From: Microcystis wesenbergii FACHB-1317
GTDB taxonomy: Bacteria; Cyanobacteriota; Cyanobacteriia; Cyanobacteriales; Microcystaceae
Assembly: GCF_014696875.1 (NCBI RefSeq)
Contig: NZ_JACJQV010000170.1
Location: 1 to 40,771 of the forward strand
Reading direction: 5' to 3'
Length of the DNA: 40,771 nucleotides
How positions within the stretch are numbered: position 1 is the first letter of the stretch; each line of letters begins with the position of its first letter. The translations under genes were made by a program, and so were the position numbers. Shown piece by piece: positions 11,489 to 39,789 of the stretch. The notes under the pieces were generated by a model. It was not told where the DNA came from. It did not search any database and saw nothing but the letters and a program-made list of their open reading frames with translations.

Positions 11489-12625
11489 ATGACTTTACCT
11501 CAAAAAAATTCTTTTTGGTACGATGAGCGATTTCAGAAGATTTTTCTACAGGTAATTATCCTGCTAATTGTCTGCCTAATTTTCTGGTTTTTTGGCCGCA
11601 ATTTAGTGATTAATTTCCAACGCTTACGCTTAAGTTTTGGCTTTGGCTTTCTCTTTGATCCCGACCGACCAGCCTCTTTTGCGATTGGTGACTCTCCTAT
11701 TGCCTACAGTCCCACCGATACCTATTTTCGCGCTCTTTTGGTGGGATTAGTTAATTCCCTCCGCATTATGATTAGTGGCATATTTTTGGCGATTAGTCTG
11801 GGAATAGTCATCGGGTTAGGTCGCTTGTCGGATAATTGGTTAATTCGTCAGTTAGCAACAATTTATGTGGAAACTATTCGCAATACTCCTTTATTATTAC
11901 AATTATTTTTTTGGTATTTTGCTGTATTTCTAAAACTGCCGAAGATTGAGGACTCTTTAGAGTTTTTTGGTAGTGTATTCTTAAATAACTCAGGAGTCTA
12001 TTTGCCTTTCCCCGCTAATAGTTTCAGGACATGGTTAGCCTTAGCTATCATTATTTTAGGAATAATTCTCTCATTATTTTTATGTCTAAAAAATAAACTT
12101 AGTTTATGCCTAACTAGCCTACTAATCCTAGTTATAATTCCTCTAATCTTGGGTTTACAATGGCAAAGTCCCCAAGTTAATCCTCTTAATCAAAATATTG
12201 ACTTTGGTTTACATCTTTCTTCCGAGTTTGCCACCCTCTTAATCGGTTTAACTGTTTATACAGCTGCCTTTATTGCGGAAACGGTACGGGGGGGGATTCA
12301 ATCGGTTAATCGGGGACAATGGGAAGCAGCTAAAGCCTTGGGATTAAAACCTTTATTAGTGATGAGATTAGTAATTTTTCCCCAAGCTTTGCCAGTGATT
12401 ATTCCTCCTTTAACTAATGAATGTTTAAATCTGGTTAAAAACTCTAGTTTAGCGATCGCTATCGGTTATAATGATATTTATGCTATCTCTAGTACCATCG
12501 CTAATCAGACAGGAAAAGCTGTAGAAATGTTAATAGTAGTTATGGCAACCTATTTATTCTTTAATCTGGTGATTTCCTTGACTATGAATCAATTAAACAA
12601 ACGGGTAAAAATTCAGGAAAGGTAG
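11489..12625 (+). CDS. Amino-acid ABC transporter permease (AapQ/BztB/NatG type)
   Basis: The 378-residue inner-membrane permease has a hydrophobic N-terminal helix and a set of transmembrane segments. The His/Glu/Gln/Arg-family signature lies near the C-terminus: EAAKALGLKPLLVMRLVIFP (EAA loop contacting the ATPase), then QALPVIIPPLTNE. The long insertion between the early and late helices (about residues 155-225) is typical of AapQ/BztB permeases, which pair with an AapM-type permease and a periplasmic binding protein for neutral and acidic amino acids; NatG is the cyanobacterial counterpart. ATG 11489 is chosen; the 23 codons upstream in frame consist of the low-complexity TTGCCTTTTGCC repeat. 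No partner genes adjoin it, so the transporter genes are dispersed. Confidence 0.85.
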   Translation: MTLPQKNSFWYDERFQKIFLQVIILLIVCLIFWFFGRNLVINFQRLRLSFGFGFLFDPDRPASFAIGDSPIAYSPTDTYFRALLVGLVNSLRIMISGIFLAISLGIVIGLGRLSDNWLIRQLATIYVETIRNTPLLLQLFFWYFAVFLKLPKIEDSLEFFGSVFLNNSGVYLPFPANSFRTWLALAIIILGIILSLFLCLKNKLSLCLTSLLILVIIPLILGLQWQSPQVNPLNQNIDFGLHLSSEFATLLIGLTVYTAAFIAETVRGGIQSVNRGQWEAAKALGLKPLLVMRLVIFPQALPVIIPPLTNECLNLVKNSSLAIAIGYNDIYAISSTIANQTGKAVEMLIVVMATYLFFNLVISLTMNQLNKRVKIQER

Positions 12626-12652
12626 GGTGTGTTAGCGAGCGCGTAACGCACC
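12626..12652. repeat. Hairpin of the GGTGCGTTA repeat family at the permease stop codon
   Basis: GGTGTGTTA pairs with TAACGCACC across nine bases (one G-T pair). The hairpin starts directly after the permease stop and may act as its transcript end. Another TAACGCACC follows at 12673-12681. It is related to the tandem units at 341-513. Confidence 0.6.
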
Positions 12653-12702
12653 GAATCGCACCAAAAGGTAGCCTAACGCACCAGAATTTAGCGATAAATT
12701 AA

Positions 12703-12948
12703 TTAATGAGCATTACCAGAATATAAAGCGGTGATAATTGCTGTCACCGCAGGACTAAGACTAGATAAAACCACCACAGAAGCGGTGGCAATGATGATAG
12801 TAGTAGCCATTCTCACCATACCATCTGTCCCTTTTTGATAGGCATCAAATTTATATTCTAAGCGGTCAACTTTTTGACCAAGTTCTTCTCGCAATTGAAT
12901 CAACGCTTCTCTGATGTCATCATTACTGGGATTTTCGGGAATTTGCAT
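12703..12948 (-). CDS. Small coiled-coil protein with C-terminal membrane segment, unknown
   Basis: An 81-residue frame starts MQIPENPSNDDIREALIQL. Residues 8-40 form a likely amphipathic helix or coiled coil (REELGQKVDRLEYKFDAY). A hydrophobic C-terminal anchor follows, with MATTIIIATASVVVLSSLSP and VTAIITALY. Proteins of this plan, a short coiled coil before a tail anchor, are common and unassigned in cyanobacteria. An in-frame TTG five codons upstream (12963) is possible. The gene stands alone between the permease and the DUF4336 gene. I give no function. Confidence 0.5.
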   Translation of the reverse strand: MQIPENPSNDDIREALIQLREELGQKVDRLEYKFDAYQKGTDGMVRMATTIIIATASVVVLSSLSPAVTAIITALYSGNAH

Positions 12949-13006
12949 AACCTTAATTAGCAATCAACTAACAACCGCATATATTATAGCAGTTCTCAGC
13001 CATAAA

Positions 13007-14182
13007 TTACAATTTTTTATCAGGAGGAGGAGTCAATCGCCAACGCACTAAAAAACTATCAATACTTTCTAAACATTCCAAGTCATCTTTAGGTAAATAA
13101 GAATCTTTTAACAAGAAAGAAAAAGCCTGCTGAAACTCTTGACTATCAGCTTGAATCGGACTAGCAAAATGACAAGGAATAACCTGTTTAATCGGCCATT
13201 GGGAAATTCTCTCAACCCATTGACTAACCTCGTCAGTAGTGCGATTAAGAATCAAAGTTTGCAAAATTGGCGCGACTATTAACCTCCCCTCTCGACGCAA
13301 ATTTAAAAAAGTCCTTTGCCAATCATCACCCCATTGAAAAGGGAATAAACCAAAATAGGCTTTTTTACTCTTTTCCTTAGCAGTAAAAGCATCTCTAAAC
13401 ACCTTAATCCAATTGGGAACAGCTAAAACAGGAGGTTGAAAATAAAGAGCAAAAAGACAAATTCTCTGCCAACCACGACGGCGATTTTCTGGGGTATCCT
13501 CCACCAAATCCTTAGCACTATTTTTAGCGTGAAACAGCAGGGGATAGGGGTCTAATTCTAAAATAGCGGGAGGATTTTCTGGGATAGAAATAATGCCATC
13601 AGTCAGCAGCAGAGTTTGAGAGTAGTGATGAAAAAAAGCCACTTCCGAGAAGTATCCCACATTCAGATCAATTGCGGGTAAAATTTCATAACTAAAATCT
13701 TTTCCTAAAGAAGTGGTTGCCGAGTCAGCAGGTAAAATTTCTGTTCGTTTTGCCGGTAAACCCAACCAACTCAAAGGTAAATTAAGAGGAAAACTCCATT
13801 GATTAGGAGCAACATAAACTATAGCCTTAGGAAAATAACGGGCAAAAGGACCGACAAAAACCTTATGTTCAATCCCAGAAATCGTCGGCAAAATAATATA
13901 TTTAACTTCCCCGTGTTCACTTTCCAACTCACGCATTAAGCGAATACATTCAGGAGTCGGGGCCACTGGTGCATAAACAAATAAACCCCCAGATGCTAAC
14001 CTAATTACCGTCATGCGAATCGGCACGACCACATAAAAAATACCCTGCAATTGCTCAAATGTCCAGAGCGTATCTTGCACCACTTCTTGGCGAATTGTCC
14101 GTCTTTGACCGTAGGGATAAAGTGGTACAATTGGCCAAAAAGGCCATGATAAATCTTGCGGAGTTATTGCGGCTTTTGTCAT
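13007..14182 (-). CDS. DUF4336 family protein, metallo-beta-lactamase-like fold
   Basis: The 391-residue protein opens with an aromatic segment (DLSWPFWPIVPLYPYGQRRT) and continues MTVIRLASGGLFVYAPVAPT, the usual beginning of DUF4336 proteins. These are related to metallo-beta-lactamase-fold hydrolases but have a degenerate metal site. In the second half, IKQVIPCHFASPI carries a conserved His-Phe that may correspond to a metal or active-site region. There is no signal peptide, so a cytosolic location is likely. It is divergent from the GTPase gene across about 58 bp, where both promoters must lie. The substrate is unknown for the family. Confidence 0.75.
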   Translation of the reverse strand: MTKAAITPQDLSWPFWPIVPLYPYGQRRTIRQEVVQDTLWTFEQLQGIFYVVVPIRMTVIRLASGGLFVYAPVAPTPECIRLMRELESEHGEVKYIILPTISGIEHKVFVGPFARYFPKAIVYVAPNQWSFPLNLPLSWLGLPAKRTEILPADSATTSLGKDFSYEILPAIDLNVGYFSEVAFFHHYSQTLLLTDGIISIPENPPAILELDPYPLLFHAKNSAKDLVEDTPENRRRGWQRICLFALYFQPPVLAVPNWIKVFRDAFTAKEKSKKAYFGLFPFQWGDDWQRTFLNLRREGRLIVAPILQTLILNRTTDEVSQWVERISQWPIKQVIPCHFASPIQADSQEFQQAFSFLLKDSYLPKDDLECLESIDSFLVRWRLTPPPDKKL

Positions 14183-14240
14183 CGTCTGATTCTATCGCTG
14201 AAAATCTCTATTTTAGTTATCATAAACCTTTCTAATCCCC

Positions 14241-15503
14241 ATGACTGATAAACTGCCCATTGATTCTTTGGTCAATACTTGGAATAGTCTCACGGGGGAA
14301 GTGATGAAAAGACTCCCCATCGACCAGTTGACTAATACTGTCCTCCAGTGGTTTAGTGTTAGTGACACTCAAGTGGCGGAAATTTTAGAAAAAGTCCGTC
14401 AAGAATTACCCACCACCGAGGCGCTGTTAATCGGCAAACCCCAAACGGGAAAAAGTTCGATTATTCGGGGAATAACGGGAGTTTCGGCGGAAATAGTCGG
14501 GCAAGGTTTCCGTCCCCACACCCAAAACACCCAGCGCTACACCTACCCCGCGGAAGACTTACCCCTGTTGATTTTTACCGATACAGTGGGGTTAGGAGAT
14601 GCCTATCAACACACAGAGACGATAATCGCGGAATTATTGGCAGATTTAGCCGAAAATACGGGACGCGCCCAGGTTTTTATCCTGACGGTAAAAATTGATG
14701 ATTTTGCCACCGATAGCCTTCTGGAAATTACCAAACAACTGCGGCAAAAATATCCTAAAATCCCCTGTTTACTGGCTGTAACCTGCCTTCATCAGCTTTA
14801 TCCCCCTAATACCGCCGATCATCCCCCTTATCCTCCCGATTTCGAGGATATCAATCGTGCCTATCAAGAAATTAAAGAAACTTTTAAGGATTTATATGAC
14901 AATTCTGTGCTAATCGATTTTACCCTAGAGGAAGACGGTTACAACCCTGTTTTTTACGGTTTAGAGGCATTTAGAGACAATTTAGCCGATTTATTGCCAA
15001 AAGCTGAGGCTAACACCATCCACCAACTTTTAGATCGGGAAACCAGCAATAAATTAGGCCATCTCTATCGGGACGTAGCCCGACGCTATATGTTAGCCTT
15101 TTCCGTCATAGCGGGAACCTTGGCGGCGATTCCCTTACCCTTAGCGACTATGCCGGTGTTAACCGCCCTACAAGTGTCAATGGTGGGGGTTTTAGGTAAA
15201 TTATACGGTCAAGTCTTAACCCCATCCCAAGCCGGTGGAATCGTCAGTGCGATCGCTGGCGGCTTTTTGGCCCAGGCCATCGGTCGGGAATTGGTGAAAT
15301 TTATTCCCGGTTTTGGCAGTGTTATCGCCGCTTCTTGGTCCGCTGCCTATACCTGGGCCTTAGGAGAGGGCGCTTGTGTCTATTTTGGCGATTTAATGGG
15401 GGGTAAAAAACCCGATCCTAAGAGGATTCAAAGGGTGATGAAAGAGGCTTTTTCTGCTGCCCAAGAAAGATTTAAAAATGTCGCTACGGGAGGAGATAAT
15501 TGA
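14241..15503 (+). CDS. P-loop GTPase with C-terminal DUF697-like membrane domain
   Basis: The 420-residue protein has a Walker A/G1 loop GKPQTGKSS (65-73) and a G3 motif DTVGLGD (114-120), like Era/YcjX-type TRAFAC GTPases. A canonical NKxD G4 motif is not seen; the corresponding strand reads LLAVTCLHQLY, so base specificity may be unusual. The C-terminal third (about 285-400) holds Gly/Ala-rich hydrophobic helices (IAGTLAAIPLPLATMPVLTA and IVSAIAGGFLAQAIGREL) matching DUF697-like membrane domains. It is probably a membrane-associated GTPase involved in envelope or organelle-like membrane work; this is inferred from related families. The start codon ATG 14241 is clear. Confidence 0.75.
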   Translation: MTDKLPIDSLVNTWNSLTGEVMKRLPIDQLTNTVLQWFSVSDTQVAEILEKVRQELPTTEALLIGKPQTGKSSIIRGITGVSAEIVGQGFRPHTQNTQRYTYPAEDLPLLIFTDTVGLGDAYQHTETIIAELLADLAENTGRAQVFILTVKIDDFATDSLLEITKQLRQKYPKIPCLLAVTCLHQLYPPNTADHPPYPPDFEDINRAYQEIKETFKDLYDNSVLIDFTLEEDGYNPVFYGLEAFRDNLADLLPKAEANTIHQLLDRETSNKLGHLYRDVARRYMLAFSVIAGTLAAIPLPLATMPVLTALQVSMVGVLGKLYGQVLTPSQAGGIVSAIAGGFLAQAIGRELVKFIPGFGSVIAASWSAAYTWALGEGACVYFGDLMGGKKPDPKRIQRVMKEAFSAAQERFKNVATGGDN

Positions 15504-31215: not shown

Positions 31216-32211
31216 ATGCGGATCGAGCAATTGCAAGCCTTTTTAGCCGTAGCCGATACGGGCAATTTTGGTCAAGCCGCGCGCCAGTGTGGAGTCACCC
31301 AATCGACTATCAGCCGCCAGATTCAATCCCTAGAAACCGATTTGGGCTTACCTCTTTTTCATCGTACCGCTCAAGCGAAGTTAACCATTGCTGGCGAGAA
31401 ATTACTGCCCCGGGCGAAACGAATTTGTCAAGAATGGACGAATGTTCACGAGGAAATCACTGACCTACAGGCAGGAAAACAGCCAGAATTGTGTGTGGCG
31501 GCGATTCATTCCGTATGCGCCCACTATTTACCGCCGATTTTGCCGAAATTTTGTGCTGAATACCCAGAAGTTCAGTTAAGAGTTACAGCCCTAGGCAGCG
31601 ATCGCGCTTTAAAAGTGCTGCGGGATGGTTTAGTAGATGTGGCGTTGGTGATGAATAATCGTTTTCTCACCTCTAGCCCGGAGATGGTGGTCGAGGTATT
31701 ATACCAAGAAGCGATCGAAATTCTCATGGCCGCTAATCATCCCCTCGCCCAATACAAAGAAGTGCCATGGTCGGAATTAATCCCCTATCCGCAAGTGGTT
31801 TTCAAAGATGGCTACGGAATGCAAAGATTAGTACAAGAATGGTTTTCCCGTCAGGATGCCCACCTAAAAACTGTCATGGAATTAAACACCCTTGATGCTT
31901 TTCGCGGTGTGGTGCGTCAGGGTAATATTATCGCTCTTCTGCCCCAATCTGCCCTGATGGAGGCTCGCAGCGATGTCACCCTCGCCATTCGTCCCCTTCG
32001 ACTTGGCTCAGGGCAAGCTCTTGCTTCCCCTAGTGGCGAAAATCCCCATGCTAATAATGGTAAATTTAGTCATCGTCTCACCCGTCAGGTAGTCCTTGTC
32101 ACCACCAGCGATCGCCTACAGATACCACCGATCGCTCATTTTTGTCAATTAGTGCGGCAAATGAAGCAAAGTGTGGTTAAAAACCTAGAAAATCACCACG
32201 TCCAGCCTTAA
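31216..32211 (+). CDS. ntcB: LysR-type nitrogen assimilation regulator NtcB
   Basis: The 331-residue LysR-type activator starts MRIEQLQAFLAVADTGNFGQ with the winged helix-turn-helix (AARQCGVTQSTISRQIQSLE). The sensor half is a periplasmic-binding-like fold. NtcB activates nitrate/nitrite assimilation genes together with NtcA in response to nitrite. The start motif and the adjacent cnaT-like gene support NtcB rather than CbbR. It is about 20 residues longer than usual. The extra stretch, RPLRLGSGQALASPSGE, includes RLGSGQA encoded by 31995-32013, which resembles the CTTCGACTTCGCTCAG palindrome at 33974. This is a likely in-frame insertion in a surface loop of the effector domain. ATG 31216 follows AGAAAGA. 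Confidence 0.8.
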   Translation: MRIEQLQAFLAVADTGNFGQAARQCGVTQSTISRQIQSLETDLGLPLFHRTAQAKLTIAGEKLLPRAKRICQEWTNVHEEITDLQAGKQPELCVAAIHSVCAHYLPPILPKFCAEYPEVQLRVTALGSDRALKVLRDGLVDVALVMNNRFLTSSPEMVVEVLYQEAIEILMAANHPLAQYKEVPWSELIPYPQVVFKDGYGMQRLVQEWFSRQDAHLKTVMELNTLDAFRGVVRQGNIIALLPQSALMEARSDVTLAIRPLRLGSGQALASPSGENPHANNGKFSHRLTRQVVLVTTSDRLQIPPIAHFCQLVRQMKQSVVKNLENHHVQP

Positions 32212-32254: not shown

Positions 32255-33316
32255 ATGAGCGATACTTTTCGAGAATTATTAAAAGCGATCGGTAGTGGCA
32301 CCCATACGGGCAAAAATTTAACCCGTCCTGAAGCGGCAATGGCCACCAAGATGATGTTAACCCAAGAGGCAACCCCGGCCCAAATCGGTGCTTTTATGAT
32401 TGCCCATCGCATTAAACGCCCCACCAGCGATGAGTTAGCGGGAATGCTTGATGCCTACGCCGAGCTTGGCCCGCAAATACCCCTAGAATCAGCCTCTTTT
32501 CAGCATCCGATCGCTATTTTTGGCAATCCCTACGATGGACGCTCTCGCACTGCCCCGGTTACTCCGATCACTACTTTAATCCTAGCGGCGGCGGGGATTC
32601 CCGTAGTCCTGCACGGGGGCGATCGAATGCCGACTAAATACGGTATTTCCCTCAAGGAAATCTGGCAGCAATTAGGAGCAGATTTTAGTCAATTATCCTT
32701 AGCAGCAGTGAAAGACTGTTTAATCACCACAGGATTGACTTTTTTCTATATTCCGCGCCATTTTCCCCTAGTACAGAATTTCATCACCTATCGGGAGCAA
32801 ATCGGTAAACGTCCGCCCATGGCCACGGTAGAGTTAATGTGGTCGCCTTTTGTGGGTAATATTCATCAGATATCGGGTTTTGTTCACCCCCCCACCGAGG
32901 ATCGTTTTTGCGAAACTTTTGCCCTGAGAAATATCTCTCACTTCACCACTGTGAAAGGATTAGAGGGGAGTTGTGATTTAGCCTGTAATCGGACGGCGAT
33001 TATTGGTTTGGGAAATCCCACCGATCCCCCTTCCTTTCAGCGATTTTTCCTAAATCCTCGCGATTATGGCTTCTGTCCCTCAGATTATCCCCTCGAATCT
33101 TTAGAAATGCTCACCGCTAAATTAAAGGGTTTATTAGCTGGAGAACATAATGAATTAACCGATGCGGCAATTTTTAACGGTGGTTTTTATCTTTGGCGCT
33201 GTGGAATTGCGCCAGATCTACCCACGGGTTTCCAGCAAGCACAAAAATCTTTACAGTCAGGAAAAGCCCTGGCTAAACTAGAACAGATCAGTAATTATCT
33301 CGAAAATCAGGAATAG
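32255..33316 (+). CDS. cnaT: CnaT-like anthranilate phosphoribosyltransferase-family protein
   Basis: The 353-residue protein resembles TrpD but belongs to the TrpD2/YbiB branch. LTRPEAAMATKMMLTQEATP is the N-terminal helical part and AAAGIPVVLHGGDRMPTKYG the phosphate-binding loop; the TrpD anthranilate-site residues are not well kept. In Anabaena PCC 7120 the gene next to ntcB, cnaT, encodes such a protein and is required for nir operon expression; the biochemical reaction is not known. The order ntcB-cnaT with a 43-bp gap is the same here, which supports the name. A MITE begins directly after its stop codon. Confidence 0.75.
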   Translation: MSDTFRELLKAIGSGTHTGKNLTRPEAAMATKMMLTQEATPAQIGAFMIAHRIKRPTSDELAGMLDAYAELGPQIPLESASFQHPIAIFGNPYDGRSRTAPVTPITTLILAAAGIPVVLHGGDRMPTKYGISLKEIWQQLGADFSQLSLAAVKDCLITTGLTFFYIPRHFPLVQNFITYREQIGKRPPMATVELMWSPFVGNIHQISGFVHPPTEDRFCETFALRNISHFTTVKGLEGSCDLACNRTAIIGLGNPTDPPSFQRFFLNPRDYGFCPSDYPLESLEMLTAKLKGLLAGEHNELTDAAIFNGGFYLWRCGIAPDLPTGFQQAQKSLQSGKALAKLEQISNYLENQE

Positions 33317-33587: not shown

Positions 33588-34200
33588 ATGAATGCCCCCG
33601 CTAGATTTTTCGACAAGATACTCACCTTTGCGGGGGATGAAATCCGACCAGAATACAAACTAACAGGCTACAAACTATCTGATGATCGACGTAAAATCAG
33701 ATTTACTGACGGTTTTCAAGCAGGAGAATTTGATTTATGGTGTAGTCAGAAGACATTAGTTTATTATTCAGATCAACAGATTAGACGGGTAAGAGTTGTT
33801 AGACGTGCTGACGGTTATTATTGTCAGTTTTTGATTGACGTAGAACGGCGAGAATACCATAAACCAACGGGACAAATAACAGGAATTGACTTAGGGTTAA
33901 AGGAATTTTATACCGATGCCCAAGGCAATACTGTAGAGAATCCACGTTATTTAAGAAAGTCAGAGCCTCGACCCTTCGACTTCGCTCAGGGTTAACACTG
34001 AGCGAAGTCGAAGTGTCAACGGTACTGTTGGGCAAACAGAAACCGACCCAAATGCCTTGGGAGAGTCTGGCCTCTGGATTCTTAATGGAGACATTGAGAA
34101 TCTAAGCTGTCTCGTTGAACAAGGAATTTACGATAACGCTCTTGGAGGGAGTCTGGCAAAAGTCTTACAGTCTCTAAACTCTAGCTCTCTTATGGGGTAA
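33588..34200 (+). pseudogene. tnpB: tnpB relic (IS200/IS605 or IS607 type) with 5' truncation and internal deletion
   Basis: The first part (33588-33995) encodes a middle piece of TnpB: KLTGYKLSDDRRKIRFTDGF, RVRVVRRADGYYCQFLIDVE and GIDLGLKEFYTDAQGNTV. GIDLG holds the first RuvC aspartate. The N-terminal 80-100 residues are missing. After ENPRYLRKSEP the frame enters a 40-bp palindrome and stops. A different frame then gives GTVGQTETDPNALGESG and a C-terminal end to TAA 34200. About 200 or more residues, including the other RuvC residues and the zinc finger, are gone. It cannot be active. Confidence 0.8.
33974..34013. repeat. 40-bp palindrome with 16-bp perfect arms inside the tnpB relic
   Basis: CTTCGACTTCGCTCAG (33974-33989) and CTGAGCGAAGTCGAAG (33998-34013) are exact inverse complements around an 8-base loop. 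It sits exactly where tnpB is interrupted. A diverged half-copy, CCTTCGACTTGGCTCAGGG, lies inside ntcB (31995-32013). Confidence 0.93.
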
Positions 34201-34402: not shown

Positions 34403-36388
34403 TTAATTAACTCGCTGCCATAAACGTTGAATTTCTTTCCTCAGTTGTGCATCAGGAGGCTGGCTAAATTGTACAGAAGGATTGACCTGCACACCTGGAA
34501 TATTCTGATTCCAGGGACTGTTGGAGACTGATTCTAAATTTATGCCACTTATCACAGGGCGAAACCCGTAGCGGACGAATACTTCCTGTTGGGAAGGCTG
34601 TCTGAGAAAGGCGACAAACTCCCTGGCTGCTTTCGCTTGTCCCTCATTCACATCCCGCCGTGCGATTGCGGCCGTCGCTACTGTCTCAATAGTCGGGTCA
34701 AGATAGTAGATTTGGTAAGGTTTTCCCTGGGTAGTTTGGGCTTGGGACCAGCGATAGAGGGCGATACTTTCGTAGGTGGTCGCCACATCAGCGTCGTTGG
34801 GTCCGCGAGCAATAAATTCCCGCAAGAGAATGTCACTCGAAAGGGGCGGCTGATAGACGGAACGCTTAATCAGAGCAAACAAAGATTGAATTCCCGGCTC
34901 ATTCAAGTTAGTACCAGTTAGGGGACTTCCGCCAAGATTGGACTGGGACCACAAACTTAAGGTTAACTGACCACTGTTGGAACGGCTAGGGTCTGTCATG
35001 ACAAAATCGAAGCTTCCCCAGGTAGATTGTCCGCCAATAGCAGTCCAGTTACGCTGTTGCATGGCCCGTTCTACACTTTGCCATTGAAAGCGTCTCCCAG
35101 GGAAGATAATCTTTCCTCTCTCGGGCCAAGCGATACCCACCAGGAAGGTTTTGACAATGGGTTGGGGCATATCGTAGAAGGGATTGCTTTCTCCCTGTAC
35201 CGCCAGGCGATCGCGCAATTCCTCTAATATTTCCCCATTGGCTGGAATGAGGATAGTAGGTGTAAAGTCATGTTTCTGGTCGATGTAGTTATTAACTATG
35301 TCCTGAGAGCCTTGAAACTTGAGTTCTAAGTTAATGTTGGGATGAGATGCCTCGAATTGTGGCTCTAGGACTGCCAATGGTTCTTGAAGTTCCGTCCCAC
35401 TGACGATGGTAAGGTTTTGCTGCACGCCTGGAAGAGGTGCATAAGCTAAAGCGAAAGCAATTAGGGCGATCGCAGCCGAAATTATTGCCCGTCTGCGTTT
35501 CGATTGAGGGCTGTTTCTCCTAGTGGGAGGCGTTAAGAGTCCTGGTTGCATGGCGAGTAATTCTTGAATGCGGTTGTTAGTGGGAGGATGGGTGGCAAAT
35601 AAGCGATTGACAAGTTTACCCTTGAAGGGATTAATAATTAGAAGGGGAGCCAATGCCGGGTTTTCTTCTGTGGATATTGACTGCTGTTGGCTGTTATTTT
35701 CTAATCTTTCTAAGGCGTTAGCGAGGGCGCGAGGATTTCCGGTTAAACTTGCTGAACCTGCATCAGCAGCATACTCTCTCGTTCGAGATATGGCTAATTG
35801 AGTTAAGGTAGCCGTAAGGGGCGCAAGCAGCAAGGTAGGGAATAAGGCGGCTAGGCGGATGGGATTGGCGTTGCGGTAGTTAAACATGGCAAACATTCCC
35901 GTCATTCCTGTTTCCGTGAGGAGAGAAATTGCTACAGAAATAGTGACAGCAACTGTAGCAGTAAGGGCATCACCGTGTTTAATGTGGCTAAGTTCGTGGG
36001 CGATAACGGCTTCTAATTCGTCTTCAGGAAGCAGTTTCATCAACCCTTCTGTAATGCAGACAACACCCCGTTGGGGATTCCTTCCAGTAGCAAAAGCATT
36101 AGGAGAAGAAGTAGGAATGATATACAGTTTAGGTTCTGGTAAATTTGCCCTGTAGCACAGCACTTCAACTATGGGTTTGAGTATAGCTTCTTCTTGAGAA
36201 TTGGCAGGACGAACATCAAAAGCGGCTAAAACAACTTGGTCGGAATAGAACCAGAGACTAAAGTTAATTACAGCAGCAACGATTAAGCCGATAACTGCAC
36301 CAATTATCCCGCCGATGAGTAGATAAGCCGTCAGAACTAAGATGCTGCTTAATAACGCTAATAAAGCAACTGTTTTTAAGAAGTTCAT
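34403..36388 (-). CDS. M48 (HtpX-like) membrane protease fused to a substrate-binding domain
   Basis: The 661-residue protein has two parts. Residues 1-290 are an HtpX/M48 protease: two N-terminal membrane helices, zinc motif HELSH (131-135), further helices, and a third ligand Glu205 in ISRTREYAAD. After a basic segment and another membrane helix (about 301-317), residues 326-661 form a type 2 periplasmic-binding fold (LTIVSGTELQEPLAV, DPSRSNSGQLTL, TYESIALYR, EFVAFLRQPSQQEVFVRYGF). The second part resembles the binding domain in the VWA lipoprotein at 37359 over the same landmarks. This fusion is unusual; HtpX normally ends after the protease. It is the last gene of the three-gene cluster. 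A membrane quality-control role regulated by ligand or partner binding is inference. Confidence 0.82.
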   Translation of the reverse strand: MNFLKTVALLALLSSILVLTAYLLIGGIIGAVIGLIVAAVINFSLWFYSDQVVLAAFDVRPANSQEEAILKPIVEVLCYRANLPEPKLYIIPTSSPNAFATGRNPQRGVVCITEGLMKLLPEDELEAVIAHELSHIKHGDALTATVAVTISVAISLLTETGMTGMFAMFNYRNANPIRLAALFPTLLLAPLTATLTQLAISRTREYAADAGSASLTGNPRALANALERLENNSQQQSISTEENPALAPLLIINPFKGKLVNRLFATHPPTNNRIQELLAMQPGLLTPPTRRNSPQSKRRRAIISAAIALIAFALAYAPLPGVQQNLTIVSGTELQEPLAVLEPQFEASHPNINLELKFQGSQDIVNNYIDQKHDFTPTILIPANGEILEELRDRLAVQGESNPFYDMPQPIVKTFLVGIAWPERGKIIFPGRRFQWQSVERAMQQRNWTAIGGQSTWGSFDFVMTDPSRSNSGQLTLSLWSQSNLGGSPLTGTNLNEPGIQSLFALIKRSVYQPPLSSDILLREFIARGPNDADVATTYESIALYRWSQAQTTQGKPYQIYYLDPTIETVATAAIARRDVNEGQAKAAREFVAFLRQPSQQEVFVRYGFRPVISGINLESVSNSPWNQNIPGVQVNPSVQFSQPPDAQLRKEIQRLWQRVN

Positions 36389-36456
36389 TAATCGTCAATC
36401 TCCAGGGTAGTATTGTGGTGTTGATTTTTCCAGTTTAGTTGATTGATTAGTCAGGT

Positions 36457-37179
36457 TCAAGAAATGATAAAATCAATATTTTCTTGAAAGCCACTCAATT
36501 CTTCACTCAAATTTCTTAACTCTATAAGTTCTTCCGAATTAGTCAAGTCAGCCGTCCGCAATTTATTTTGTAATTGTTGCAGAACCCCAGCCGAGTCTTG
36601 AATCACAGTGTACAAGCTAGTTAATTTTGCTTGACGAGTATCTTGTCCTTGTTGTGCTAATTCAATATTCCGTTCTAAACTGGCTTGCAACTGTTCTAAT
36701 TGTTTACGAGATACACCGAAACTCGAACGAATTTTACTTTTAACTTCCAAGAGTTGCTGTTGTAACTCATTGATTGACAATAAGGATTCACTTTCTGGCA
36801 AACGTTGAGCAATTTGTTCTATTTTTTGGGGAAGTTCAATAGCACTATCGCAAGCTTGCTGTACGGCGATTAATAAGTCCATTTGCACTGAACTGCTGCT
36901 TAATAATTGGTTAGCTTCTTGACGCAGAACTTCTGCCTTTCCTGCTAAACTTTGAGCCGAACCTTGAATAACTTGCAGTTCCTGTTGTAATTGTTGTTTG
37001 ACCCGTTTCTCCCCATCTGGTTCTCTAGCTTTCAAGGCGGTTGCGCCGACTACAGTTACCGCCAATGCTGTTGGTAAAGTAACAGTATTAGATAATCCCA
37101 AAAAGCGAACACCAACAACTAAAACGATCCCGCCTGCTAAAACGGCTAAAGGGTAATAAAGAGGGTTAGCAATTTTCAT
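36457..37179 (-). CDS. Membrane-anchored coiled-coil protein of the VWA/M48 cluster
   Basis: The 240-residue protein starts with two hydrophobic helices (YYPLAVLAGGIVLVVGVRFL and TLPTALAVTVVGATAL). About 180 residues of predicted coiled coil follow (KQLEQLQASLERNIELAQQG and similar), rich in Gln, Glu and Leu. No enzymatic motif is visible. It lies between the VWA lipoprotein and the M48 fusion gene, all on one strand, so a structural or adaptor role in a shared complex is plausible. The gap to the upstream VWA gene (about 180 bp) is filled by a 122-bp MITE; the gap to the M48 gene is 68 bp. Confidence 0.7.
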   Translation of the reverse strand: MKIANPLYYPLAVLAGGIVLVVGVRFLGLSNTVTLPTALAVTVVGATALKAREPDGEKRVKQQLQQELQVIQGSAQSLAGKAEVLRQEANQLLSSSSVQMDLLIAVQQACDSAIELPQKIEQIAQRLPESESLLSINELQQQLLEVKSKIRSSFGVSRKQLEQLQASLERNIELAQQGQDTRQAKLTSLYTVIQDSAGVLQQLQNKLRTADLTNSEELIELRNLSEELSGFQENIDFIIS

Positions 37180-37235
37180 TTTTAGTTAACCGTTGATGAT
37201 TGATGATTAATGATTTAGTATTCATTACCTAAAAC

Positions 37236-37357
37236 GGGAGCATCTCATTTATGCAAGTGAGTAATTATACTTATCACTAAAACTGTTTTCCAGCAAGGCT
37301 TTCAAAATAGCTTGACATAAAAACCTGATTTAGGGGTTACAAAGGTGAGATGCTCCC
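37236..37357. mobile_element. 122-bp MITE with 8-bp target duplication CCTAAAAC, inserted at the VWA gene stop codon
   Basis: The perfect 12-bp terminal inverted repeats GGGAGCATCTCA / TGAGATGCTCCC are flanked by CCTAAAAC at 37228-37235 and 37358-37365. The right copy contains the stop codon of the VWA gene (CTA at 37359-37361), so the insertion left the protein end intact. The GCATCTCA core relates it to the element at 21596-21840. Confidence 0.92.
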
Positions 37358-37358
37358 C

Positions 37359-39104
37359 CTAAAACTCTACTTGCAAGTCTCCCATCACAGTTGATATAGT
37401 CGCCGGATCTCCTTGACGATAGTAACCGCCGTTAACTTCGGCAATTTTTTGCAAAGCCTGGGGATTAAATTCTCCTTCTTTCCCATAACCAATAGTAAAG
37501 AAAGCAATTCGCTGATCGGAAGAAAAGCCACTCTTTTGCAACTCTTGTTCCAACTGATCCAGATTAATTTGTGACCCCGAATCTTCTCCATCAGTTAAGA
37601 TTAACACTGCATTAATAGTATCAGGGCGCAAATTTTGAGATAGCCAGTTGCGGGCATAGAGGGCGCTATCATAAAGCCTTGTACCACCATCTGCCCGCAG
37701 TTGGCCAATAAATTCAATACCCCGATCTCGCCCCTGTGGAGTTCCTTCTATAATCACAGGTTCGTTAATAACTGAATTGAAACTAATTAGGGCAATTCTT
37801 TCCTTCGGCCCCAGGTTCTGAACGTAATTAAGTAAAGTATTCTTAACTGATGTCATTTTTTGCCCTTTCATCGACCCAGAAGTATCAATTACTACTGCTA
37901 CTTGCGACGGTTTCTTAGCATAATTTTGCCAGCTTTTAAGCATGGCTTCAACTACTTCTGGTTGGGGCGAACGGTAAGAGTCATAGGTGGGTTGAGGATT
38001 CACGCCAAATTCAGCAGAAAACTTGCTTCCCAAGGCTACTCCTGGAACACCCGGTCGCAGTCCCAAATCTGTGGCAATTTGTTGGTTTTCGGGCAAAAGA
38101 ATGAATTCAATTACCTTTTCAGCAGCTTCTTTTTCTCGGTCACTTATCCAAGGCGCATTGGCTAAAATTGCCCGCATATTGGAACTGAAAGTAGCCTTGG
38201 GATAGACGGCTTGATAGCGCGTTTGATTGGAACCAGCTTGGCTGTTAGCAGCAATTACCAAAGACTCGTAAACTGAGGCTACCGAAGCCCAAAAGGGTCC
38301 GTTGGCGACCATAGATTGGGCAAGAGAAGCGGTAGAAGTACCGTAGCGAGTGATTTTACTCTGGATCTGTTGAATTTGTCCCTGATATTTTTCTACGTCA
38401 GCTACAGTCAGATCTTCTGGGCGCTTACCTGCTACAGCAGCAAATTGGGCCACCAGGGTTTGTAAGCCGGAATTAGAACGGGTAGGCGCGGTGTGAACGT
38501 AAGTGATGGGAAGTGGTGGGGCTTTGGGATCGAGTTGGCGGTAGTTACCCAATTTAGCTAGGGCGACGAAGGGATCTTCTACTTTTTCTAAACCCTTGGC
38601 GAGTTCAGCAGTTGTCATTAATACCATCGGACTGTAAGCGATCAGGGGTGAGTCGGTAATTTTTGGGATGTAATTTTGTCCTGGAAATAGCTTGTTCATC
38701 TGGTAGATGAGTTGACTCTGATAAATTTCGCCATCGACGGATAAAAGGGTGGGAAATTCGGGCGCATCGGCTTTAAGAGTTCCCTTTTGGTACTGTTGGG
38801 ACAGCGAGAGAATTGTTTGGACTACATCGCCACTTCCTTTAGCTTCGCAACTGAGGTAAAAGGCTTCACCGCTAGCGAGTTTGGGTTGGCTTTGGTTCAA
38901 TTTCGTGGCTGCTTGCTGACAGAATTGGGCTAAGTCGCTTCCCACGAGAAATTTGACTTCAAGTCCCTGTTGTTTGGGTTGTTGGCTTCCTTGTTGCTGG
39001 GGTTGCTGTCCACAAGCGCCTAGAAATAGCAAGGTAGCCAGGACGGTTAAGGGAGTAACTGAGGTTAAATAACGAGAAAAAGGAAGATTTTGGCGTTTAA
39101 TCAT
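37359..39104 (-). CDS. Lipoprotein with substrate-binding domain and C-terminal von Willebrand A domain
   Basis: The 581-residue protein starts at ATG 39104 (an earlier TTG at 39128 would add eight residues). A signal sequence ends in the lipobox LGAC with Cys31, so it is a lipoprotein outside the cytoplasmic membrane. Residues 48-360 form a type 2 periplasmic-binding fold (VGSDLAQFCQ, TRSNSGLQTLV, VYESLVIAAN, VIEFILLPENQQIATDLGLR). Residues 400-581 are a VWA domain with a complete MIDAS start DTSGS (407-411) and later LTDGEDSG. It may capture a ligand and present it through the metal-dependent VWA. It is the promoter-proximal gene of the three-gene minus-strand cluster. I do not know the ligand. 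Confidence 0.82.
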   Translation of the reverse strand: MIKRQNLPFSRYLTSVTPLTVLATLLFLGACGQQPQQQGSQQPKQQGLEVKFLVGSDLAQFCQQAATKLNQSQPKLASGEAFYLSCEAKGSGDVVQTILSLSQQYQKGTLKADAPEFPTLLSVDGEIYQSQLIYQMNKLFPGQNYIPKITDSPLIAYSPMVLMTTAELAKGLEKVEDPFVALAKLGNYRQLDPKAPPLPITYVHTAPTRSNSGLQTLVAQFAAVAGKRPEDLTVADVEKYQGQIQQIQSKITRYGTSTASLAQSMVANGPFWASVASVYESLVIAANSQAGSNQTRYQAVYPKATFSSNMRAILANAPWISDREKEAAEKVIEFILLPENQQIATDLGLRPGVPGVALGSKFSAEFGVNPQPTYDSYRSPQPEVVEAMLKSWQNYAKKPSQVAVVIDTSGSMKGQKMTSVKNTLLNYVQNLGPKERIALISFNSVINEPVIIEGTPQGRDRGIEFIGQLRADGGTRLYDSALYARNWLSQNLRPDTINAVLILTDGEDSGSQINLDQLEQELQKSGFSSDQRIAFFTIGYGKEGEFNPQALQKIAEVNGGYYRQGDPATISTVMGDLQVEF

Positions 39105-39789
39105 GAGTCTTGACAGAGTAATAACCAATAAAGCACGAAGTTACTCGGATCAATGCAGATGGGATGAGAACATATTTACATCCATATCTTACATTCCCCA
39201 CCCCTAACTATTTACCAATGGTCCTGACTGAGCAATTTTTAGTTAAGGTAAAATTATGAAAAAGTAAATTTTAGGTTAAAATTAAAGGCATCTAGACCAA
39301 AAAAACGACCAGTTCTCTTGCTGGCAATGCCCTCAAAACTCAACATAAAAGTAAACTTTTAAGAACGGTTTGGGCTCTTTTGGATTTGGTGGGTAAAATG
39401 TATTCTGAGATACAGTCCTGCTGGCGAGGGAGTAGAGGGAACCACAGAGACACAGAGGACACAAAGATCGATCTATCCTATGTAAGTTAAACTTATCACA
39501 CAGAACCTAGAAGAGCCCGATTTGACTGAATTGATACCGTTCAAGATAAACTTAAAAGACATCCCCATAATATTATCTCAAGACCAAAAGTCTTTCTAGT
39601 TAAGGAATCTAACCGAATAAAAATGATTTTAATTGCCTCATATTTTTTCAGTAAAATTGAATTAGCAAGGATAGATATACATTACAGCTATTGAACTATT
39701 TGGTTGGTACACAAGACAAAGGTAAGCTGTGACTAGGTTGTAATTTTTGGAGATGTCTAAAGTGTAGGAATTAAAGAGGTAAACTCCAA
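39105..39789. other. Gene-free interval upstream of the VWA cluster
   Basis: No credible reading frame is seen. It holds the presumed promoter of the VWA/M48 cluster and one decayed MITE (39373-39517). The remainder is AT-rich. A segment at 39411-39470 resembles 5627-5680. Confidence 0.45.
39373..39517. mobile_element. 145-bp decayed relative of the GGCTCTTCT-ended MITE
   Basis: The right end CACACAGAACCTAGAAGAGCC is a near match to the ends of the element at 22071-22203; the left end GGCTCTTTTGGATTTGGT is more diverged. The flanks CGGTTTG and CGATTTG match at six of seven bases, an eroded target duplication. The inside includes CAGAGACACAGAGGACAC, a common cyanobacterial repeat. Confidence 0.6.

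Follow-up and report, generated by a model that had tools for sequence, protein, structure and literature searches.

What kind of system is encoded by the three genes that follow one another on the minus strand at positions 34403-39104 of contig NZ_JACJQV010000170.1 of Microcystis wesenbergii FACHB-1317? This contig of 40,771 nucleotides, in a host genome of 5.04 Mb, is hereafter called the window. The initial annotation, made from the sequence alone, had described an envelope cluster in which a lipoprotein with a VWA domain and a membrane protease carry matching binding domains on either side of a coiled-coil membrane protein. We found that the genes for the VWA lipoprotein, the coiled-coil protein and the second binding domain form a triad that is kept together in other cyanobacteria, and that the protease is an add-on. 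We read the triad, with confidence a little short of even, as a cyanobacterial branch of a bacterial envelope-stress cassette that has no TelA and would form a complex, to which an HtpX-type protease is tethered in a few lineages. The features are listed below; residues of gene 1 are counted from an alternative in-frame start, a TTG at 39128 upstream of the ATG, which yields 589 amino acids.

37359..39104, minus strand: gene 1, lipoprotein with a type 2 solute-binding protein (SBP) domain and a C-terminal VWA domain (open reading frame, Pfam; 581 amino acids from the ATG at 39104)
39012..39014, minus strand: lipobox cysteine C39 (LGAC), unchanged in all 16 relatives aligned
37920..38957, minus strand: SBP domain and tail of gene 1, residues ~58-403 (Pfam, profile alignment)
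38466..38480, minus strand: RSNSG landmark of gene 1, residues 217-221 (alignment, motif reading)
37416..37904, minus strand: VWA domain of gene 1, residues ~409-571, with DTSGS at 415-419 (Pfam, alignment)
36457..37179, minus strand: gene 2, 240 amino acids, hydrophobic N-terminus (about residues 3-36) and a remainder of coiled-coil type (open reading frame, sequence)
34403..36388, minus strand: gene 3, HtpX-type M48 protease followed by a membrane-anchored SBP, 661 amino acids (open reading frame, Pfam, genome matches)
35528..36388, minus strand: HtpX half of gene 3, belonging to a second HtpX subfamily (residues 1-287; family search, tree)
35984..35998, minus strand: HELSH zinc motif, residues 131-135 (motif reading)
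35420..35494, minus strand: N-terminal membrane segment that belongs to the SBP itself (residues 299-323), retained within the fusion after a basic linker
34406..35419, minus strand: SBP domain of gene 3, residues 324-661 (confident structure model; the nearest folds are sulfate-binding proteins)
34970..34984, minus strand: RSNSG landmark of gene 3, residues 469-473 (alignment, motif reading)

All three reading frames were open where the initial annotation had placed them, and Pfam searches, the SBP landmarks and the DTSGS and HELSH motifs bore out the domains that it had named. Gene 1 matched SBP_bac_8 (E 2.3e-19), SBP_bac_11 (E 9e-7) and VWA (E 6.3e-14), and its structure model had a mean predicted local distance difference test (pLDDT) score of 86.3. 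When gene 1 was aligned with relatives from other phyla (42 rows), S218, N219, G221 and Y287-E288-S289 were invariant, as were the VWA residues S417, S419 and D513, with D415 and T483 nearly so. The DxSxS motif together with the Thr and Asp we take to be a metal ion-dependent adhesion site. Gene 2 had no Pfam family over the cut-off; its top match, MG280, stayed below it (E 0.0022). Gene 3 matched Peptidase_M48 (E 2.7e-33, residues 65-279) and SBP_bac_11 (E 1.7e-17, residues 326-610). The HExxH motif, the downstream Glu and the hydrophobic membrane segments of an HtpX protease are all present, and Glu205 of REYAADAG (codon 35774-35776) is presumably the third zinc ligand. Gene 3 thus shares with HtpX (M48B) a full-length protease half with HELSH and the downstream Glu, but differs in its C-terminal SBP and in grouping apart from 35 usual cyanobacterial HtpX rows. 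Its HtpX half also scored below the NCBIfam HtpX equivalog cut-off (best 278.5 bits against 369). HtpX is a quality-control protease for membrane proteins. The C-terminus of E. coli HtpX lies in the cytoplasm, and therefore the SBP fused behind it would lie outside.

The match between the binding domains of the first and last genes was upheld. Profile-profile alignment with hhalign joined the two SBPs at E 1.1e-16 over 317 columns, tail included, so that they do not belong to unrelated families. Each retrieved the other at E ~2e-11 in a whole-genome search, and with neither as query was any other SBP found in the host genome at E ≤ 0.001. The landmarks read RSNSG, YES, PENQQ and LGLRP in gene 1 and RSNSG, YES, PSQQ and GFRP in gene 3; in part, such motifs may be a general property of SBP folds. 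Judged by their sequences, the two SBPs are homologous. They have the type 2 fold in common with the sulfate/molybdate-type SBPs of ATP-binding cassette (ABC) transporters, but are 14% identical to them in sequence and are joined to VWA or HtpX. No ABC permease or ATPase was seen among the two window neighbours scanned (31216-32211 and 32255-33316) or among the recurrent neighbours scanned.

To follow the three genes through the phylum, 194 genomes were scored with the best 6 first-look candidates per genome for gene 1 and for the gene 3 SBP and the best 14 for gene 2. Matches to the VWA domain or the protease alone elsewhere, distant relatives of gene 1 (e.g., in G034 and G045) and two genomes (G147, G183) whose gene 2 matches were short and interrupted by stops were dropped before counting. 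Strong matches to gene 1, gene 2 and the gene 3 SBP then occurred in the identical 16 of the 194 genomes, the window's included (log10 p -23 for one pair of sets, not corrected for kinship). Order and strand were kept in 14 of these 16, the exceptions being G085, where the three genes lie far apart, and G175, where the SBP is divergent. Named genomes were also scanned with gene 1, and the best 80 of 147 relatives were kept, all with cyanobacterial titles. By profile score, 64 of these loci were complete, every one with the order SBP-VWA, coiled-coil protein, SBP on the same strand, and with split frames in a few (L135, L202); five of the 16 incomplete loci end no more than 2.4 kb past gene 1. 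Cylindrospermum sp. NIES-4074 is one of the named cyanobacteria with the cluster. The genes are therefore kept together in other genomes, as a three-gene cluster implies. Trees of gene 1 and, in a quick version, of the SBP roughly follow host groups. Among 11 genomes compared from the window's own genus, one (G392) carries 1,347 bases of gene 1 at 98%, and another (G353) has a cluster that is broken and whose SBP is unfused (partial copy at L263 8001-9347, broken copy at L238 1855-5641). The other nine gave no cluster match and no SBP match at E ≤ 1e-60; all same-genus comparisons, as well as the fusion and HtpX counts given below, are among the matches listed, best first. Because it is scarce or broken in these genomes, the cluster is a patchy accessory in the genus.

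The initial annotation had found no named system with these parts. This does not hold, as related SBP and SBP-VWA genes adjoin TelA in other phyla and an XpaC-type protein in one genome. That genome, G034, is a distant member of the phylum and carries in a row an SBP-VWA gene, a coiled-coil PF10112 gene (E 1.2e-26), a membrane SBP and TelA, the first three in the same order as in the triad. The gene 1 profile matched its SBP-VWA protein with 91 bits (E 5e-27), and the cyanobacterial SBP profile aligned by hhalign with the SBPs of G034 (E 1.8e-6) and Sphaerotilus (E 7.3e-7). Sphaerotilus, Variovorax and Nonomuraea have the order SBP, TelA, SBP-VWA, small protein. Deinococcus has SBP, SBP-VWA and small protein without TelA, two more actinobacterial matches have no annotated TelA nearby, and in Listeria the PF10112-TelA pair stands by itself in the stretch viewed. 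Like the triad, the TelA (PF05816)/XpaC (PF10112) cassette thus combines an SBP-VWA protein and a membrane-anchored SBP with an adjoining small membrane gene of coiled-coil type; the triad differs in having no TelA match, a coiled-coil protein not detectably XpaC and, in a few cases, a protease fusion. Gene associations of this TelA/XpaC type are known. A literature search found no paper on the gene set, although some of the cassette may have been described in earlier work on Ter systems (Anantharaman et al. 2012, cited in PMC7824862). On the Variovorax plasmid (L260 3085-13449), the SBP-TelA-SBP/VWA cassette lies ~2-3 kb from annotated Wadjet anti-phage genes.

We also considered gene 2 as an XpaC. 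The sequence did not support this, and gene 2 was retained as a positional equivalent. PF10112 was over the cut-off in none of the 18 genomes searched, and the small proteins of betaproteobacteria and Deinococcus showed no significant match to XpaC. The cyanobacterial gene does occupy the position of the PF10112 gene in G034, and its product has a hydrophobic N-terminus.

Is the protease part of the system? With the best 3 candidates per genome scored, the full fusion was present in three of 388 genomes of the order, namely the window's, G488 and G461, which belong to three different families; the remaining 15 triad genomes have an unfused SBP as their third gene. The protease is therefore an add-on and not core, and the proposal that the binding domains control an integral-membrane protease fits the genomes with the full fusion and is not general. 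The fusion itself is real, since it also sits in the single-contig 8.59 Mb genome of G461, which argues against an assembly error. The fusion of G488 and that of L199 (Lyngbya aestuarii BL J) share the same 709-codon frame and were taken as one. All three fusions have the same kind of junction, in which the HtpX end is followed by a basic linker and this by the membrane segment that belongs to the SBP. Their HtpX halves are 57-60% identical, and both halves are open with the zinc motifs kept. The SBP halves fall in three separate parts of the quick SBP tree, those of L199 and G461 close to sequences from relatives of their hosts and the window's next to Gomphosphaeria, and well-supported branches also separate the gene 1 sequences of the three clusters. 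In the HtpX tree, the three fused halves fall together with two stand-alone proteins, those of G273 and G389 (support 85, 98), and by themselves they do not form one clade. We coined the name HtpX2 for this second subfamily, which is set apart (support 99) from the 35 usual HtpX rows, among them the second HtpX of G488 and the HtpX of three same-genus genomes.

Further traces of the protease were found in named loci. HtpX remnants at E ≤ 1e-3 were confined to L140, L186 and L199 among the 80; L154 has an M48 gene at another place. The HtpX gene of Coleofasciculus L140 closely follows gene 2, where the contig ends in what resembles a fold-back. A first tree put it with the fused group (86), and in a larger one it was unplaced. 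In L186, a single open frame combines part of a small membrane protein, the last ~60 HtpX residues and the SBP, and to judge by this composition it looks like a deletion scar. The small membrane protein precedes the SBP or protease, after gene 2 (or after gene 1 if gene 2 is missing), in 10 of the 80 loci, L186 counted (e.g., L149 12649-13197, L157 12550-13104, L176 5369-5950 and L199 12482-13015). It also occurs in G425, and G461 has a short remnant. The five listed have 163-193 amino acids, three that were checked are hydrophobic at both ends, and no Pfam family was over the cut-off in the five scanned. The best fit is an ancient arrangement of five genes that underwent many losses, although the same HtpX type may instead have been captured repeatedly. 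It is conceivable, if doubtful, that an ancestral system of SBP-VWA, coiled-coil protein, small membrane protein, HtpX2 and SBP used a periplasmic binding domain to gate or target an integral-membrane protease, and that HtpX2 and the small protein later disappeared on many occasions, so that scattered fusions and the L186 scar are what is left. HtpX also lies within open frames of ~550 amino acids, with an extra part, at L239 7525-9186 and L240 8208-9854.

Our reading of the triad as a TelA-less envelope-stress cassette starts from its domain content, the homology of the SBPs, the co-occurrence and order of the genes, the kinship that SBP and SBP-VWA show with TelA-linked genes and the recurrence of the fusion. 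XpaC-TelA has been assigned to envelope-stress responses (PMC3139573, PMC12791056). An XpaC-like gene was up 10.3-fold and telA1 3.44-fold in Lactococcus that overproduced a membrane protein; both stand in a table of putative CesSR envelope-stress regulon genes, which also holds the membrane protease gene ftsH (1.73-fold) (PMC3139573). Disruption of lmo1967 (TelA) in Listeria raised susceptibility to nisin 4-fold and to tellurite 2-fold (Collins 2010, cited in PMC12791056).

For the assembly, its topology, its role in stress and the recruitment of the protease, we infer the following course. The lipoprotein and the membrane-anchored SBP would pair in the periplasm through their related binding domains, and the VWA domain would supply a metal-dependent face for protein binding. 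The coiled-coil protein would act as a scaffold that joins the assembly to, or across, the membrane and stabilises a membrane under stress. In a few lineages, including that of the window, HtpX2, which is embedded in the membrane, is covalently attached to what would be the SBP subunit; it could thereby be recruited to the complex for clearing damaged membrane proteins, with the SBP as a possible regulator. A quality-control protease fused to one subunit would suit a role in envelope damage better than nutrient uptake, and the protease joined to one part hints that the set watches over such damage.

Several observations weigh against this reading. No TelA match was obtained in any of the 16 triad genomes (nine of the 194 phylum genomes have one), and therefore the cytosolic parts of the known cassette are not to be assumed. 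The cyanobacterial coiled-coil protein did not align with XpaC or with the small membrane proteins of the other gene sets (E 0.12-0.33 in hhalign), so that this link is drawn from position and build. One or two of the genes are missing from 11 of the 80 named loci despite more than 4 kb after gene 1. Eight same-genus genomes match neither half of the fusion at E ≤ 1e-60, and in G273 and G389 HtpX2 stands alone, with no SBP match at E ≤ 1e-60 among the matches listed.

Other explanations have to be weighed on the same evidence. The paired SBPs might be a ligand sensor that binds a specific small molecule, perhaps an oxyanion, with the complex signalling or storing without an ABC transporter; we consider this unlikely, though least so among the alternatives to an envelope-stress role. 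Somewhat less probable still is that the SBPs no longer bind a ligand and serve only as protein-docking modules, with SBP-VWA helping in assembly or in organising the surface. The presence of two SBP copies that have diverged, the lack of a transporter gene among the neighbours scanned, the shared tails within the SBP fold and the lipoprotein anchor would all suit docking, but the invariance of S218, N219, G221 and Y287-E288-S289 is what would be expected of a working cleft.

A barrier against phages or bacteriocins at the membrane, like that proposed for Ter/TelA, appears improbable to us. For TelA, structures beneath the membrane that exclude phage or xenobiotics have been proposed (PMC7824862), and the Variovorax cassette has Wadjet genes close by. 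However, a PADLOC scan of seven proteins gave only weak LmuB matches, for the coiled-coil protein (E 0.0011, 0.0092), and trees that roughly track host groups are less usual for defence genes. Equally improbable, in our view, is that the HtpX fusion is an accident in which a stop codon was lost between two neighbouring genes, with no joint function. Its rarity, the repeat-rich flank in the window and the broken or partial copies in G353 and G392 would agree with such an event, but three lineages carry the fusion, with similar HtpX halves and intact zinc motifs, and the fused halves cluster with two stand-alone ones.

Few partners of HtpX-family proteases are known. If the reading as an envelope-stress complex is true, the covalent link to one subunit of a conserved complex in the envelope would give HtpX a named partner and a way in which the protease is aimed or regulated. 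The TelA/XpaC-type stress genes, whose mechanism is obscure, would gain concrete extracytoplasmic parts.

A promoter and terminator scan gave about as many sites as shuffled sequence. Similarity of the window to same-genus genomes extends to 33321 and ends where repeats and a transposase-like fragment start. This fragment (33588-33995), which we presume to be transposase-like, has a 314-base core with many copies in same-genus genomes, mostly at 91-96%. A short repeat of the TTCGACTTNGCTCAGG type is present in three copies in the window (31997, 33975 and 33997; 0.02 expected by chance), and the LysR-type regulator gene at 31216-32211 contains it in frame. In L087, three glycosyltransferase genes (12018-15444) converge on the cluster, and similar genes lie there in L085, L086, L089 and L096.

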